Part shown: one piece after another, positions 38,190 through 46,427 of the stretch
Numbering within the stretch: position 1 is the stretch's first letter
Layout of the letters: each line of letters starts with the position of its first letter
Notes under the pieces: generated by a model
Databases searched by the model: none
Seen by the model: the letters and a program-made list of their open reading frames with translations, nothing else
What the model was told of the DNA's origin: nothing
From: Gemmatimonadaceae bacterium
Lineage (GTDB): Bacteria > Gemmatimonadota > Gemmatimonadetes > Gemmatimonadales > Gemmatimonadaceae
Length of the DNA: 59,329 nucleotides
Assembly (NCBI GenBank): GCA_019752115.1
Contig: JAIEMN010000033.1
Location: 1 to 59,329 of the forward strand
Direction: 5' to 3'
Translations under genes and position numbers: made by a program

Positions 38190-38265
38190 GCCACGGATGA
38201 CACGGAAACGCACGGCTCCTTCAGCGCGAGCTGAGGGAACCGCGTGTTTCCGTGTCATCCGTGGC
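38190..38265. repeat. 76-bp interspersed palindromic repeat, copy 1
   Basis: Perfect 20-bp outer arms GCCACGGATGACACGGAAAC (38190-38209) and its complement (38246-38265), with a smaller inner inverted repeat (cttcagc / gctgagg). It sits between the convergent stops of nifJ and the second metallophosphoesterase, where it may act as a bidirectional terminator or mRNA-stabilising hairpin. A second copy of the same length is at 42614-42689. Confidence 0.8.
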
Positions 38266-42613: not shown

Positions 42614-42689
42614 GCCACGGAGCACACGGAAACGCACCGTTCCCTCCGCGCGCGTTGATGGAACCGTGCGTTTCCGCGAAATCCGTGGC
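42614..42689. repeat. 76-bp interspersed palindromic repeat, copy 2
   Basis: Same length and layout as 38190-38265. Outer arms begin and end in GCCACGGA...TCCGTGGC; a central GGAAACGCAC/GTGCGTTTCC pair is kept, whereas the five bases between (gcaca against cgaaa) no longer pair. Its second half (gaaccgtgcgtttccgcg...) aligns closely to copy 1. It sits in the 3' spacer between the exonuclease gene and the tRNA array terminator. Confidence 0.75.
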
Positions 42690-42745: not shown

Positions 42746-42749
42746 GAAG

Positions 42750-42821
42750 AGCCACAGATCGGGATTGAACCGATGACCGCCCGATTACGAATCGGGTGCT
42801 CTACCACTGAGCTACTGTGGC
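42750..42821 (-). tRNA. tRNA-Thr(CGT)
   Basis: 72 nt. Acceptor GCCACAG/CTGTGGC; anticodon stem CCCGA/TCGGG with loop TTCGTAA (anticodon CGT); T-arm ATCGGTTCAATCCCGAT. No encoded CCA. Last gene of the array. Confidence 0.93.
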
Positions 42822-42881
42822 GACGTGCGCGGAGCAAACTAACACGCTCCGGGACCATCGTGTACTGCGAAAACACCTGCA

Positions 42882-42963
42882 TGCTCTGGCGCGGACTCGA
42901 ACCGCGACGCCTTGCGGCACCGCCCCCTCAAGACGGCGTGTCTACCAATTTCACCACCAGAGC
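42882..42963 (-). tRNA. tRNA-Leu(GAG)
   Basis: 82 nt with a long variable arm (class II). Acceptor GCTCTGG/CCAGAGC; anticodon stem CCGTC/GGCGG (one U-G), loop TTGAGGG with anticodon GAG; variable arm TGCCGCAAGGCGT; T-arm GCGGTTCGAGTCCGC. Discriminator A. No encoded CCA. Confidence 0.93.
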
Positions 42964-43021
42964 GAGGGGTCCCGGCTTGCACCAGGAACCTGCAACCAAC
43001 ACCTGCGAGCCGTACTACTGA

Positions 43022-43096
43022 CGGGAGCGACGGGGCTCGAACCCGCGACCTCTCGAGTGACAGTCGAGTGCTCTAACCAAACTGAGCTACGCCCCC
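43022..43096 (-). tRNA. tRNA-Asp(GTC)
   Basis: 75 nt. Acceptor GGGGGCG/CGCTCCC (one G-U); anticodon stem CTCGA/TCGAG, loop CTGTCAC (anticodon GTC); T-arm CGGGTTCGAGCCCCG. Discriminator G as expected for Asp. No encoded CCA. Confidence 0.94.
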
Positions 43097-43125
43097 CAAC
43101 CACACCTGCACCTGCAACCTGCTAG

Positions 43126-43197
43126 TAGCTCCAACGGGAATCGAACCCGTCTCTCGACCTTGAAAGGGTCGCGTCCTAACCGATAGACGATGGAGCC
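43126..43197 (-). tRNA. tRNA-Glu(TTC)
   Basis: 72 nt. Acceptor GGCTCCA/TGGAGCT, so the first pair is G1-U72 instead of Watson-Crick; anticodon stem CGACC/GGTCG, loop CTTTCAA (anticodon TTC); T-arm ACGGGTTCGATTCCCGT. The other Glu tRNA in the array has the same G1-U72 pair. No encoded CCA. Confidence 0.93.
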
Positions 43198-43221
43198 GTT
43201 TTCCCGTTGTGACTACCTACA

Positions 43222-43294
43222 TAGCGGTAACGGGATTCGAACCCGTGTTCCAGCCTTGAGAGGGCTGTGTCCTAGTCCCCTAGACGATACCGCC
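43222..43294 (-). tRNA. tRNA-Glu(CTC)
   Basis: 73 nt. Acceptor GGCGGTA/TACCGCT with G1-U72; anticodon stem CAGCC/GGCTG, loop CTCTCAA (anticodon CTC); T-arm ACGGGTTCGAATCCCGT. No encoded CCA. Only 24 bp from the tRNA-Glu(TTC) gene. Confidence 0.93.
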
Positions 43295-43303
43295 AAGATC
43301 CAA

Positions 43304-43376
43304 CAGGCCCGGAGGGAATCGAACCCCCAACCGCCGGTTTTGGAGACCGGTGCTCTACCAATTGAGCTACGGACCT
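43304..43376 (-). tRNA. tRNA-Trp(CCA)
   Basis: 73 nt. Acceptor AGGTCCG/CGGGCCT (one U-G), starting with A as usual for Trp; anticodon stem CCGGT/ACCGG, loop CTCCAAA (anticodon CCA); discriminator G. No encoded 3' CCA. Confidence 0.94.
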
Positions 43377-43409
43377 CCAGAGATCTTTGCAGATCTCCGA
43401 GTGACTCAG

Positions 43410-43484
43410 GGTGACCGACGGGAATCGAACCCGCAACCCCCGGAACCACAATCCGGTGCTCTAACCGATTGAGCTACGGCCACC
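43410..43484 (-). tRNA. tRNA-His(GTG)
   Basis: 75 nt including the extra G-1 at 43484, which faces discriminator C73 (43410), the identity pair of tRNA-His. Acceptor GTGGCCG/CGGTCAC; anticodon stem CCGGA/TCCGG, loop TTGTGGT (anticodon GTG). No encoded CCA. First gene of the array. Confidence 0.95.
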
Positions 43485-43588: not shown

Positions 43589-44155
43589 TCAGTCCTTCGC
43601 GCGATCGAGGTACTCGCCCGTCGTCGGGTTCACGCGAATGCGCGTCCCCTGCTCGATGAATTCCGGCACGTTCACCACCACGCCGTTCTCGAGCTTCGCC
43701 GGCTTCGACGACGCCGTCTTGGTGGCGCCACGCACGACCGGCGCCGTGTCCACGATCTCGAACACGAGCGAGTTCGGCAGCTCGATCCCGATCGGCCGCC
43801 CGTTGTACCACTCGGCCAGGATCTTCATCCCCGGCTGCATCCACGGCGCCGAATCACCGAGCGTCTCCTCGTCCAGCTCGAGCTGGTCGTAGTTCTCGAT
43901 GTTCATGAAGTGGTACGTGTCGCCGCCCTGGTAGAGGAACTCCAGTTCGTGCGTTTCCATGTCCGCCTTCGTGATCGTGTCGGCGGCGCGGAAGCGATGC
44001 TCGAAGCTCGACCCGGTGCGAAGGTTCTTGAGCTTCGCCTGCACCATCGCGCGCAGGTTGCCCGGCGTGTGGTGACGGAACTCCAGCACGCGGCACGGAT
44101 CGCCTTCGAAGACGAGCACCATGCCGCGACGGATCTGCGTTGCGGTGACGGCCAT
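43589..44155 (-). CDS. efp: Elongation factor P
   Basis: 188 residues from ATG 44155 (MAVTATQIRRGMVLVFEGDP). Three KOW/OB-type domains: KOW-like N domain (1-64), OB domain II (RAADTITKADMETHELEFLY, GGDTYHFMNIENYDQLEL), C-terminal OB III (GATKTASSKPAKLENGVVVN, VPEFIEQGTRIRVNPTTGEY). EF-P rescues ribosomes stalled at polyproline. The loop tip reads HHTPGNLRAMVQAK: residue 33 is Asn where E. coli has the beta-lysylated Lys34 and others Arg. An AGG lies ~10 bases before the ATG. A short dyad ggtgtg-g-cacacc sits upstream at 44203-44215. The spacer 44156-44335 holds no gene. Confidence 0.95.
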   Translation of the reverse strand: MAVTATQIRRGMVLVFEGDPCRVLEFRHHTPGNLRAMVQAKLKNLRTGSSFEHRFRAADTITKADMETHELEFLYQGGDTYHFMNIENYDQLELDEETLGDSAPWMQPGMKILAEWYNGRPIGIELPNSLVFEIVDTAPVVRGATKTASSKPAKLENGVVVNVPEFIEQGTRIRVNPTTGEYLDRAKD

Positions 44156-44335
44156 ATAGTCAGACCTGCGAACAGGGAAACAGACGGGAGCCAGCGCCCA
44201 TCGGTGTGGCACACCAACGGCAGCCGGATTCGGTACAGCCTCGAAAAATAGACGAGCTAAGCCGTGAAGGGAAGGCCATTTACCGCCCCCCGCCCGGGTC
44301 GGGACGGCCGGCCAGATCCCCCGCGAGATCCCGAG

Positions 44336-44941
44336 CTAGATCCCGAGCTTCCGCCGGAACTCCTGCCCGCTGGGCGGCCGCGCCGGCGTCTTCGGGTCGC
44401 GGCGCTCGGCCCCGACCTTCACGTCGAGCATCCGGCGGTCCGGCGCAAAGGCCGGCGGCGACACCCGGGTCGTCTCCGCCCGCTCGCCGTAGTGCTTGGC
44501 CAGGCCGAGCGCGATCCCTTCGAACGCCGCCAGCATCTCGGCCGGTCCCTCGAACCGGATGCGCATCGTGTCGAGGTCGATCAGCTCGACGTCGAACTCC
44601 GCATACGGAATGCCGGGGATCAGCGTGTCGAGCACCGTCGGTGCCAACCGCGTGATCTGCATCAGCACGGTGCGCGCCGACGTATGCCCCTTGAGCAGCG
44701 CGCCGTACTCCTTGAGGACCAGCGGCACGAGCTGCATCGCCACGAACTGGTAGACCTCGTGCACCGGCCGACGCCGCACATCGGCGATCGCTTCCACGAA
44801 CGCCATGACCCGCCCCGGCGCCCCGGGGAGGCGCCCCACGTCATTCAGGTGCTCGGTCGACGCCGCGCGAACGGCCGCCAGCTCACGAGGGCCGAACTCC
44901 GCCTGCACCAGGTCTTCCAGCAGCACGAGGATGGAACGCAT
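44336..44941 (-). CDS. H-NOX-like (heme NO-binding fold) protein without visible heme ligand
   Basis: 201 residues. The layout matches the HNOB domain: VLLEDLVQAEFGPRELAAVR (1-25), VMAFVEAIADVRRRPVHEVY and FVAMQLVPLVLKEYGALLKG (~45-85), ITRLAPTVLDTLIPGIPYAE (~95-115), FDVELIDLDTMRIRFEGPAE (~116-136), LAAFEGIALGLAKHYGERAE. In heme H-NOX proteins the proximal His lies in a I-x-x-x-I-H-x-x-V stretch before the L-x-P motif; here the aligned residue is Pro (LAPTVL), and the Y-x-S-x-R heme-propionate motif reads FEGPAE. So probably heme-free. Nine bases after the tesA-like gene stop, same strand. Confidence 0.6.
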   Translation of the reverse strand: MRSILVLLEDLVQAEFGPRELAAVRAASTEHLNDVGRLPGAPGRVMAFVEAIADVRRRPVHEVYQFVAMQLVPLVLKEYGALLKGHTSARTVLMQITRLAPTVLDTLIPGIPYAEFDVELIDLDTMRIRFEGPAEMLAAFEGIALGLAKHYGERAETTRVSPPAFAPDRRMLDVKVGAERRDPKTPARPPSGQEFRRKLGI

Positions 44942-44950
44942 GGCGAGAAC

Positions 44951-45742
44951 CTAATGCGTTCCGGCAGGCGCCGCCCACGAGGCGATCGCGGCTTGCAGCG
45001 GCCCCCACAGCGTGGCGGCGACGAGCCGTGATCCTTCCGGGTTGGGATGGATACCGTCCGCCTGGTTGAGCCGCGCGACGCCCGCCACGCCATCGAGGAG
45101 AAAGGGCCACAGGGGCACCTTCGTCTCCTGCGCCGCCCGCGCGTAGACGGCGTGAAAGCGCGTGGTGTAGGCGCGGCCGAGATTGGTGGGCGCCTCCATC
45201 TGCACGAGCGCGATCGCCGCCTCGGGGCGCTGCGCCCGCACGATGCCAATCAGCTTGATGAGGTTCGCGTAGGTCGAATCGGGATCGACGCCGCGCAGCC
45301 CGTCATTCGCGCCCACCTCGAGCACCACCAGACGCGCCGGCTGGTCGAGCACCCACGAGGCGCGGCGCACCGCGCCCGCCGAGGTTTCGCCGCTGAGCCC
45401 CGCATTCACGATGCGCACCGCGTACCCTGCCGAATCGGCCTTGGCCTGCAGCAGGGCGGGATAGGCCTGGGCCGGATCGAGCCCGAGTCCGGCCGTCAGG
45501 CTCGTCCCGAGGAGCACGACCCGGGGAACTCCCGCTGCGGCCGGACTTCCCGTTGATTGCGGATCGCGCGCCGCCGCCGAGGCGCCGACCGCTCCCGATG
45601 GAGCGCGTCCGGAATCCTTTCCCGACGCGCTGCCGTTGGAGGAGCGATCGGCGGCGTTGGCCCCGCAGGCGGCCAACCCGCCCAGCAGCATGGCCGCCAG
45701 CGCCCGAACGCCCCGAAATCTGACCCGCACCCGACTCTGCAT
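44951..45742 (-). CDS. GDSL/SGNH esterase, TesA-like, probable lipoprotein
   Basis: 263 residues from ATG 45742. Signal peptide with lipobox LGGLAAC, then a Ser/Gly/Ala-rich linker (~25-70), then an SGNH hydrolase domain: LLGTSLTAGLGL (block I, catalytic Ser; Thr replaces the Asp of GDSL), IVNAGLSGETSAG (block II), VVLEVGANDGLRG (block III Asn) and DGIHPNPEGSRLVA (block V Asp-His). Closest pattern is E. coli TesA (arylesterase/lysophospholipase/thioesterase I). Divergent from the ABC genes exactly as tesA is from ybbA-ybbP in enterobacteria; the two start codons overlap on one CATG. Confidence 0.87.
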   Translation of the reverse strand: MQSRVRVRFRGVRALAAMLLGGLAACGANAADRSSNGSASGKDSGRAPSGAVGASAAARDPQSTGSPAAAGVPRVVLLGTSLTAGLGLDPAQAYPALLQAKADSAGYAVRIVNAGLSGETSAGAVRRASWVLDQPARLVVLEVGANDGLRGVDPDSTYANLIKLIGIVRAQRPEAAIALVQMEAPTNLGRAYTTRFHAVYARAAQETKVPLWPFLLDGVAGVARLNQADGIHPNPEGSRLVAATLWGPLQAAIASWAAPAGTH

Positions 45743-46427
45743 GCTTGTTGCCCGTGGATTGACCAAGGAATACCTGAGCGGCACCCAGCGCCTGACGGTG
45801 CTGCGCGACGTGTCCTTCGACGTCCCGGCCGGCGCCTTCGTGTCCATTGTCGGACCCTCGGGCAGCGGAAAGACGACCCTGCTCGGCCTGCTGGCCGGAC
45901 TCGATACCCCGAGCGCGGGGTCGGTGTCCCTCGATGGCGTGGATTTCTCGCGCCTCGACGAAGATGCCCGGGCCCGGCTGCGCGGTGAGAAAGTTGGGTT
46001 TGTCTTCCAGAGCTTTCAATTGATCCCCACGCTCACCGCGCTCGAGAATGTACAGGTTCCCCTCGAGTTGAGTGGGGCCGCGAGCACCACCGAGGCCGCC
46101 GTGCGCGCGAAAGAGCTGCTCACGCGCGTCGGTCTGGCGGATCGGACGCATCACTTTCCCCAGCAGCTGTCCGGCGGCGAGCAGCAACGGGTGGCGCTCG
46201 CGCGTGCGTTCGTGAACGAGCCGCGCATTCTCTTCGCCGATGAGCCCACCGGCAACCTCGATGGCACGACCGGTGAGCGCATCGTGGAGCTGCTGCAATC
46301 GCTCAACCGCGAGCGCGGCTGCACGATCGTGCTCGTCACGCACGACCCGAGCCTCGCCGCGCGCACGCAGCGTACCATCCGCCTGCGCGATGGCGTGATC
46401 GTGGAAGACATCCGGCACGACGCATGA
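45741..46427 (+). CDS. ABC transporter ATP-binding protein, YbbA/LolD-like
   Basis: 228 residues from ATG 45741 (MLVARGLTKEYLSGTQRLTV). Walker A GPSGSGKT (~38-45), Q-loop VFQSFQLIPTLTALENVQVP (~85), signature LSGGEQQRVALARA (~138), Walker B ILFADEPTGNLDG (~158), H-loop VTHDPSLAARTQRTI. This MacB/LolD-type ATPase partners the next gene (4-bp overlap), giving a YbbA-YbbP pair. Its start codon shares bases with that of the divergent esterase gene. Confidence 0.93.
   Translation: MLVARGLTKEYLSGTQRLTVLRDVSFDVPAGAFVSIVGPSGSGKTTLLGLLAGLDTPSAGSVSLDGVDFSRLDEDARARLRGEKVGFVFQSFQLIPTLTALENVQVPLELSGAASTTEAAVRAKELLTRVGLADRTHHFPQQLSGGEQQRVALARAFVNEPRILFADEPTGNLDGTTGERIVELLQSLNRERGCTIVLVTHDPSLAARTQRTIRLRDGVIVEDIRHDA

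Follow-up and report, generated by a model that had tools for sequence, protein, structure and literature searches.

The gene at 44336-44941 of the window, as the whole analysed stretch of 59,329 nucleotides from a Gemmatimonadaceae genome is called here, probably encodes a stand-alone protein with the H-NOX fold and without heme, that is, a bacterial pseudo-H-NOX signalling module. This proposal is drawn from sequence and prediction, and combines a retained fold, a lost proximal histidine, a lost Y-x-S-x-R motif, the absence of cysteine, and intact relatives under purifying selection. By predicted fold and sequence kinship the protein is an H-NOX, and it lacks the residues by which an H-NOX heme sensor is recognised. 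If the proposal is correct, a stand-alone bacterial group without the histidine, Y-x-S-x-R or the zinc-binding cysteines would indicate that the H-NOX fold can outlive heme-based gas sensing, and would provide a small protein for asking what the hinge and the pocket do without heme.

The gene and its predicted fold

44336..44941, minus strand: gene of the putatively heme-less H-NOX-fold protein, ATG to stop, 201 aa

In a direct Pfam scan the 201-aa ORF matches HNOB (PF07700) at 4.2e-7, its score of 30.5 bits exceeding the family cut-off of 25.5, and HNOB is the sole Pfam family for the protein among those at E up to 10; the NCBIfam scan returned no family at E up to 10. Searching the whole genome with PF07700 gave 0 matches, its first step having put forward no candidate, and the gene was recovered by alignment-derived profile searches. 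HNOB is matched at E up to 1 by all ten members of the group of relatives described below, the window protein included, with a best value of 1e-10. With the window protein alone as query, phmmer retrieved no H-NOX from the PDB, the only matches being two transcription-regulator chains at 0.0017. When the window protein and L002-L009, nine group members with no ordinary H-NOX among them, were combined into a profile, the PDB comparison did return H-NOX, with the Shewanella woodyi protein 6ocv at 2.4e-13. Alternative frames over the gene, such as a 255-codon ORF at 44264-45031 on the plus strand, were rejected, the minus frame being the one conserved in relatives. Scanning its surroundings for promoters and terminators gave no signal above shuffles.

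A first AF2 model, computed from 15 aligned proteins (the window protein, the nine other group members and five ordinary H-NOX), reached a pLDDT of 88.6 and a pTM of 0.81. Its best PDB match in Foldseek is the Nostoc H-NOX 4iae (1.6e-10), and VIA-align places this predicted, not solved, structure on the H-NOX 3tfd with a Z of 18.1 over 172 aligned residues and an rmsd of 3.5. Residue 1 of the model aligns to H-NOX residue 2, without an N-terminal extension. Steering of the prediction by the ordinary H-NOX rows was considered and rejected, since a second model from the nine closest group members alone gives the same PDB matches; in this model the pLDDT is 81.8, the helices and strands are nearly unchanged, and Foldseek again returns Nostoc H-NOX, at 4.1e-10. 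The H-NOX-like fold claimed in the initial annotation is thus borne out by the HNOB match and by the predicted structures, with or without ordinary H-NOX rows. The next PDB folds are Bet3/TRAPP proteins (Z 9.9 over 131 residues, rmsd 3.7), one of which, 6aq3, is palmitate-bound; this V4R/Bet3 resemblance is secondary and far weaker than the H-NOX match, with its Z of about 18, and V4R is absent among the Pfam matches listed for the window protein.

The heme site

44621..44656, minus strand: helix F, residues 96-107, ITRLAPTVLDTL, the ordinary place of the H-NOX proximal histidine, with no histidine here (model and alignment)
44639..44641, minus strand: codon of Pro101, aligned to the proximal histidine (profile and joint alignments)
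44540..44554, minus strand: F-E-G-P-A, residues 130-134 (F130, G132, A134), replacing Y-x-S-x-R (alignment)

When 6ocv is aligned with the nine-member profile no gaps occur across helix F and a proline column falls on the proximal histidine. Profile-profile comparison of the group with ten ordinary H-NOX of the same class (probability 99.1) again puts proline at this place. In the joint alignment the column holds histidine in all ten ordinary proteins, and in the group it holds proline in eight members, histidine in one (L004) and arginine in one (L010). A register shifted by one would bring Ala100 of the window protein to the site, still not a histidine; moreover, its residues 96-107 contain no His, Cys or Met, and helix F is free of histidine in nine of the ten group members. 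The Tyr, Ser and Arg of Y-x-S-x-R are all present in each of the ten ordinary H-NOX, and all three are missing from the corresponding positions of every one of the ten group members, nine of which have Phe and Gly instead of Tyr and Ser. Both features had been read from the window sequence at the outset; the proline at the proximal position is upheld by the group-profile, profile-profile and joint alignments alike, and the absence of Y-x-S-x-R, with F-E-G-P-A in the window protein, extends to the whole group. The exceptional member, L004:1477-2100 (G010), has a histidine at the proximal site and no Y-x-S-x-R, and may be a natural intermediate or carry a chance histidine.

It had been anticipated that another histidine, for example that of KGHTSAR, might be the proximal ligand, in which case the histidine-less reading would fall; no support for this was found and the reading stands. 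The histidine of KGHTSAR, His86, sits within a modelled loop (residues 79-88) and was rejected as a heme ligand, being histidine in just three of ten members. His30 and His61 were set aside as not common to the whole group. His150 is the sole histidine conserved in all ten members, and was also rejected, being found in six of ten ordinary H-NOX beside their own proximal histidine. The window protein contains no cysteine at all, and the three zinc-binding cysteines of the zinc/redox subset of H-NOX are therefore missing; for the same reason a zinc/cysteine redox mechanism of the Vibrio cholerae H-NOX type does not apply.

In an alternative reading, which we consider unlikely, the protein is still a gas sensor and holds heme either by a different axial ligand or, weakly, by none. 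This reading draws on the H-NOX fold retained in the predictions, on His101 of L004, and on the PDB entry 2kil, which by its title is an H103G mutant of an H-NOX protein solved in the Fe(II)CO state; since such a structure exists, loss of the histidine alone need not abolish heme. The reading is opposed by a helix F without His, Cys or Met in the window protein, by the disappearance of Y-x-S-x-R from all ten members, and by the presence of the only universal histidine, His150, in six of ten ordinary proteins that have a proximal histidine. As the histidine and Y-x-S-x-R are both lost, we infer that the window protein is likely without heme.

A group of relatives

The group comprises ten proteins in nine genomes, the window protein included. 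It is carried by eight of 30 genomes of the genus, one of them (G024) with two copies, and by G269, which belongs to another genus of the family. Single-sequence and profile searches covered 61 relatives together with 298 genomes of the phylum, 394 of the class, 179 of the family and 30 of the genus, in sets that overlap. The genus profile search counts nine genomes, the ninth of which (G015) has an ordinary H-NOX only, leaving eight carriers. Neither the profile searches of the 179 family and 394 class genomes nor the protein search of the 298 phylum genomes found a member outside these nine genomes; the sets for class and phylum are samples, and as these searches scored just the top 8 to 18 candidates of each genome, a distant member may escape. 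Two scans of wider genome contigs gave no new relative, their single match (L047) being the contig of L003/G024 again. Several candidates were rejected as members: L011-L015, L037-L040 and L044-L046 are ordinary H-NOX, as are L056 and L057, with both motifs present, and L060, with Y-x-S-x-R in the part seen; L041 is a fragment bearing the Y-x-S-x-R region, and L042 is a false match, inositol-phosphatase-like.

A phylogeny of histidine-less homologues, suggested in the initial annotation, recovers a real group: in a midpoint-rooted tree its ten proteins are separated from ten ordinary H-NOX of the same class at 100/100. The nine members other than L010 cluster at 89/94. L010, from G269, forms a long branch that joins right at the split between group and ordinary proteins, a kind of join that the tree program warns may be false.

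Ordinary H-NOX occurs in four of the 30 genus genomes (G010, G014, G015 and G020), three of which also carry a group protein. Five of the eight genus carriers show no ordinary H-NOX, namely the window genome (97% complete), G029 (one contig, 99%), G023 (93%), G024 (88%) and G017 (70%), so the group protein need not be paired with an ordinary one.

Genomic neighbourhood

44951..45847, minus strand: TesA-like GDSL hydrolase, longest ORF, upstream neighbour (Pfam/NCBIfam)
43589..44212, minus strand: elongation factor P (EF-P), longest ORF, downstream neighbour (Pfam/NCBIfam)

The TesA-like gene and the H-NOX gene share a strand, with 9 nt between the stop of the first and the ATG of the second. 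A lipobox-like LGGLAAC in the TesA-like ORF points to a lipoprotein translated from a later start. YbbA- and YbbP-like genes nearby lie on the strand opposite to TesA, H-NOX and EF-P. Across the genus, TesA precedes EF-P on one contig in 23 of 30 genomes, and a gene of the H-NOX group stands between them in five of these 23; the gap measures 798 to 873 nt in the five with the gene and 104 to 223 nt in the 18 without it, and no decayed remnant was detected in the 18 short gaps at E up to 1. The seven remaining genus genomes gave no TesA/EF-P pair and fall outside the junction count: G002 and G007 have TesA without EF-P in the stretch examined, G022 has a weak TesA-like match only, and in G003, G008, G012 and G026 a TesA match is absent. 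The order TesA, group gene, EF-P is also found in G269, with a gap of 1006 nt.

The other four members (L006-L009; G017, G014, G023 and G024) lie directly 3' of a co-oriented gene for an ABC-F ATPase, the distance from the ABC-F stop being 79 nt in L062. The G024 copy is the second in its genome, at a separate locus, and in G014, G017 and G023, where the group gene follows ABC-F, TesA precedes EF-P without it. The ABC-F ATPase matches the NCBIfam family 'ribosomal protection-like ABC-F' narrowly above the cut-off (two copies scanned). A copy at no less than 82% identity is present in 27 of the 30 genus genomes, some truncated at contig ends, which makes the ABC-F gene independent of the H-NOX gene.

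Two further features of the window were recorded. Seven tRNA genes are clustered at 42749-43483 on the minus strand, directly downstream of the EF-P gene; their specificities are Thr, Leu, Asp, Glu, Glu, Trp and His. A 76-nt near-palindromic repeat occurs at 38190-38265 and 42614-42689, the two copies being 82% alike; elsewhere in the genome, nine contigs hold further copies, full or partial, with 20 strand-wise matches in total, and the repeat resembles a small palindromic element of the interspersed kind.

Selection and conserved residues

All ten ORFs of the group are free of internal stops. In six pairs of group genes the dN and dS values (NG86) are 0.10/0.25, 0.15/0.41, 0.14/0.38, 0.16/0.38, 0.20/1.04 and 0.44/0.95, giving a dN/dS of about 0.19 to 0.47, a rough estimate for GC-rich genes; two pairs of ordinary H-NOX of the genus gave 0.08 and 0.11 (NG86). 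The group protein, judged from these ratios, is under purifying selection, less tightly than ordinary H-NOX, as its higher dN/dS implies.

44339..44404, minus strand: C-terminal tail, residues 180-201, with the Arg pairs R180-R181 and R196-R197, of low model confidence (model and alignment)

The hinge glycines of ordinary H-NOX are placed in helices D and G (PMC8196705). Both helix-G glycines are conserved in all ten group members and the helix-D glycine in nine, the exception being the window protein, which has Ala68. Arg127 is found in ten of ten group members versus one of ten ordinary H-NOX, and F130 and G132 are each kept in nine members. In the tail, which is probably flexible given its low model confidence, one Arg of each pair (R181 and R196) is present in all ten members and the aligned pair in nine; the second pair extends past the C-terminal end of ordinary H-NOX.

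These data also bear on the view, which we regard as quite unlikely, that this one-time H-NOX gene is under relaxed selection, is frequently lost and has no strong role at present. Carriage by just eight of 30 genus genomes, absence from 18 of 23 genus TesA/EF-P junctions, and a dN/dS above that of the ordinary paralogue are all in keeping with decay; however, no internal stop interrupts any of the ten ORFs, the 18 short junctions hold no remnant at E up to 1, dN/dS is well below 1, R127, R181 and R196 are invariant in the ten members and F130 and G132 nearly so (nine of ten), and in G024 the gene is present twice, with one of its copies at another locus, behind ABC-F.

Proposed mode of action and known systems

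In the pseudo-H-NOX module that we propose, no stable heme would be bound, and NO or O2 would therefore not be sensed through heme. The two-lobed domain, in which the glycines of hinge helices D and G are kept in most members, may act as a switch or docking module. The state of such a switch could depend on a different small hydrophobic ligand occupying the emptied pocket, or on a protein partner, with the Arg-paired C-terminal tail as a putative docking segment; the adjoining TesA-like lipase is not the favoured partner.

The protein shares with ordinary stand-alone bacterial H-NOX, such as those of Shewanella oneidensis and S. woodyi (4u99, 6ocv), a common fold, domain length, the helix-G glycines and a profile match; it differs in having no proximal histidine, Y-x-S-x-R or cysteine, and in adding an Arg-paired tail. 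The nearest precedent is the pseudo-H-NOX of the alpha subunit of animal sGC, likewise an H-NOX domain without heme, if heme is indeed lost here. That domain is part of a multidomain cyclase subunit. According to PMC8196705, it binds no heme, the human alpha subunit lacking the heme histidine and the moth alpha subunit lacking Y-x-S-x-R, and an N-terminal extension fills its heme pocket. The window protein, in contrast, is bacterial and stands alone with 201 aa, matches HNOB only with no recognised fusion domain, has lost both motifs together, and is predicted to have no pocket-filling N-terminal extension. The V. cholerae H-NOX is another member of the family thought to work heme-free, with redox sensing by cysteines at a zinc site (PMC7108781); section 14 of the same article states that the proximal histidine is absolutely conserved in 598 BLAST relatives of this protein at 1e-20 or better. 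The two cases differ, since those relatives keep the histidine and the V. cholerae protein senses via cysteines, whereas the window protein has none. In the literature consulted, the animal cyclase subunit (PMC8196705) is the only sequence-based heme-less H-NOX domain met; no description of a bacterial H-NOX group of this kind was recognised among the open-licence PMC papers searched.

A more speculative extension, to which we assign a low probability, is that an H-NOX sensor has been turned into a cofactor-free module working with the translation-rescue machinery, its Arg tail touching RNA or the ribosome and its empty pocket reading a metabolite. The group gene lies before EF-P in six members and after ABC-F in the other four, and both kinds of factor have been reported to relieve ribosome stalling (PMC11381351). 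The probability is set low because this coincidence was noticed post hoc and involves two loci and two common genes.

The initial annotation had coupled the protein to the TesA-like lipase, as a possible lipid sensor. A lipid-sensing regulator of this kind is highly improbable: the two genes are 9 nt apart on the same strand and Bet3/TRAPP proteins, with 6aq3 palmitate-bound, are the next PDB folds, but the gene is missing from 18 of 23 genus TesA/EF-P junctions, four of ten members follow ABC-F, with TesA preceding EF-P without the gene in G014, G017 and G023, the window protein has no cysteine for a palmitoyl link, and TesA appears lipoprotein-like whereas the H-NOX protein has no obvious signal. 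The coupling is not favoured because of the 18 empty junctions and the four members located elsewhere, and the tie between group gene and lipase is weak. The window genome also encodes two further TesA-like hydrolases (L098, on G000 contig 39, and one on G000 contig 59), one of which lies beside a second YbbA-like ATPase.
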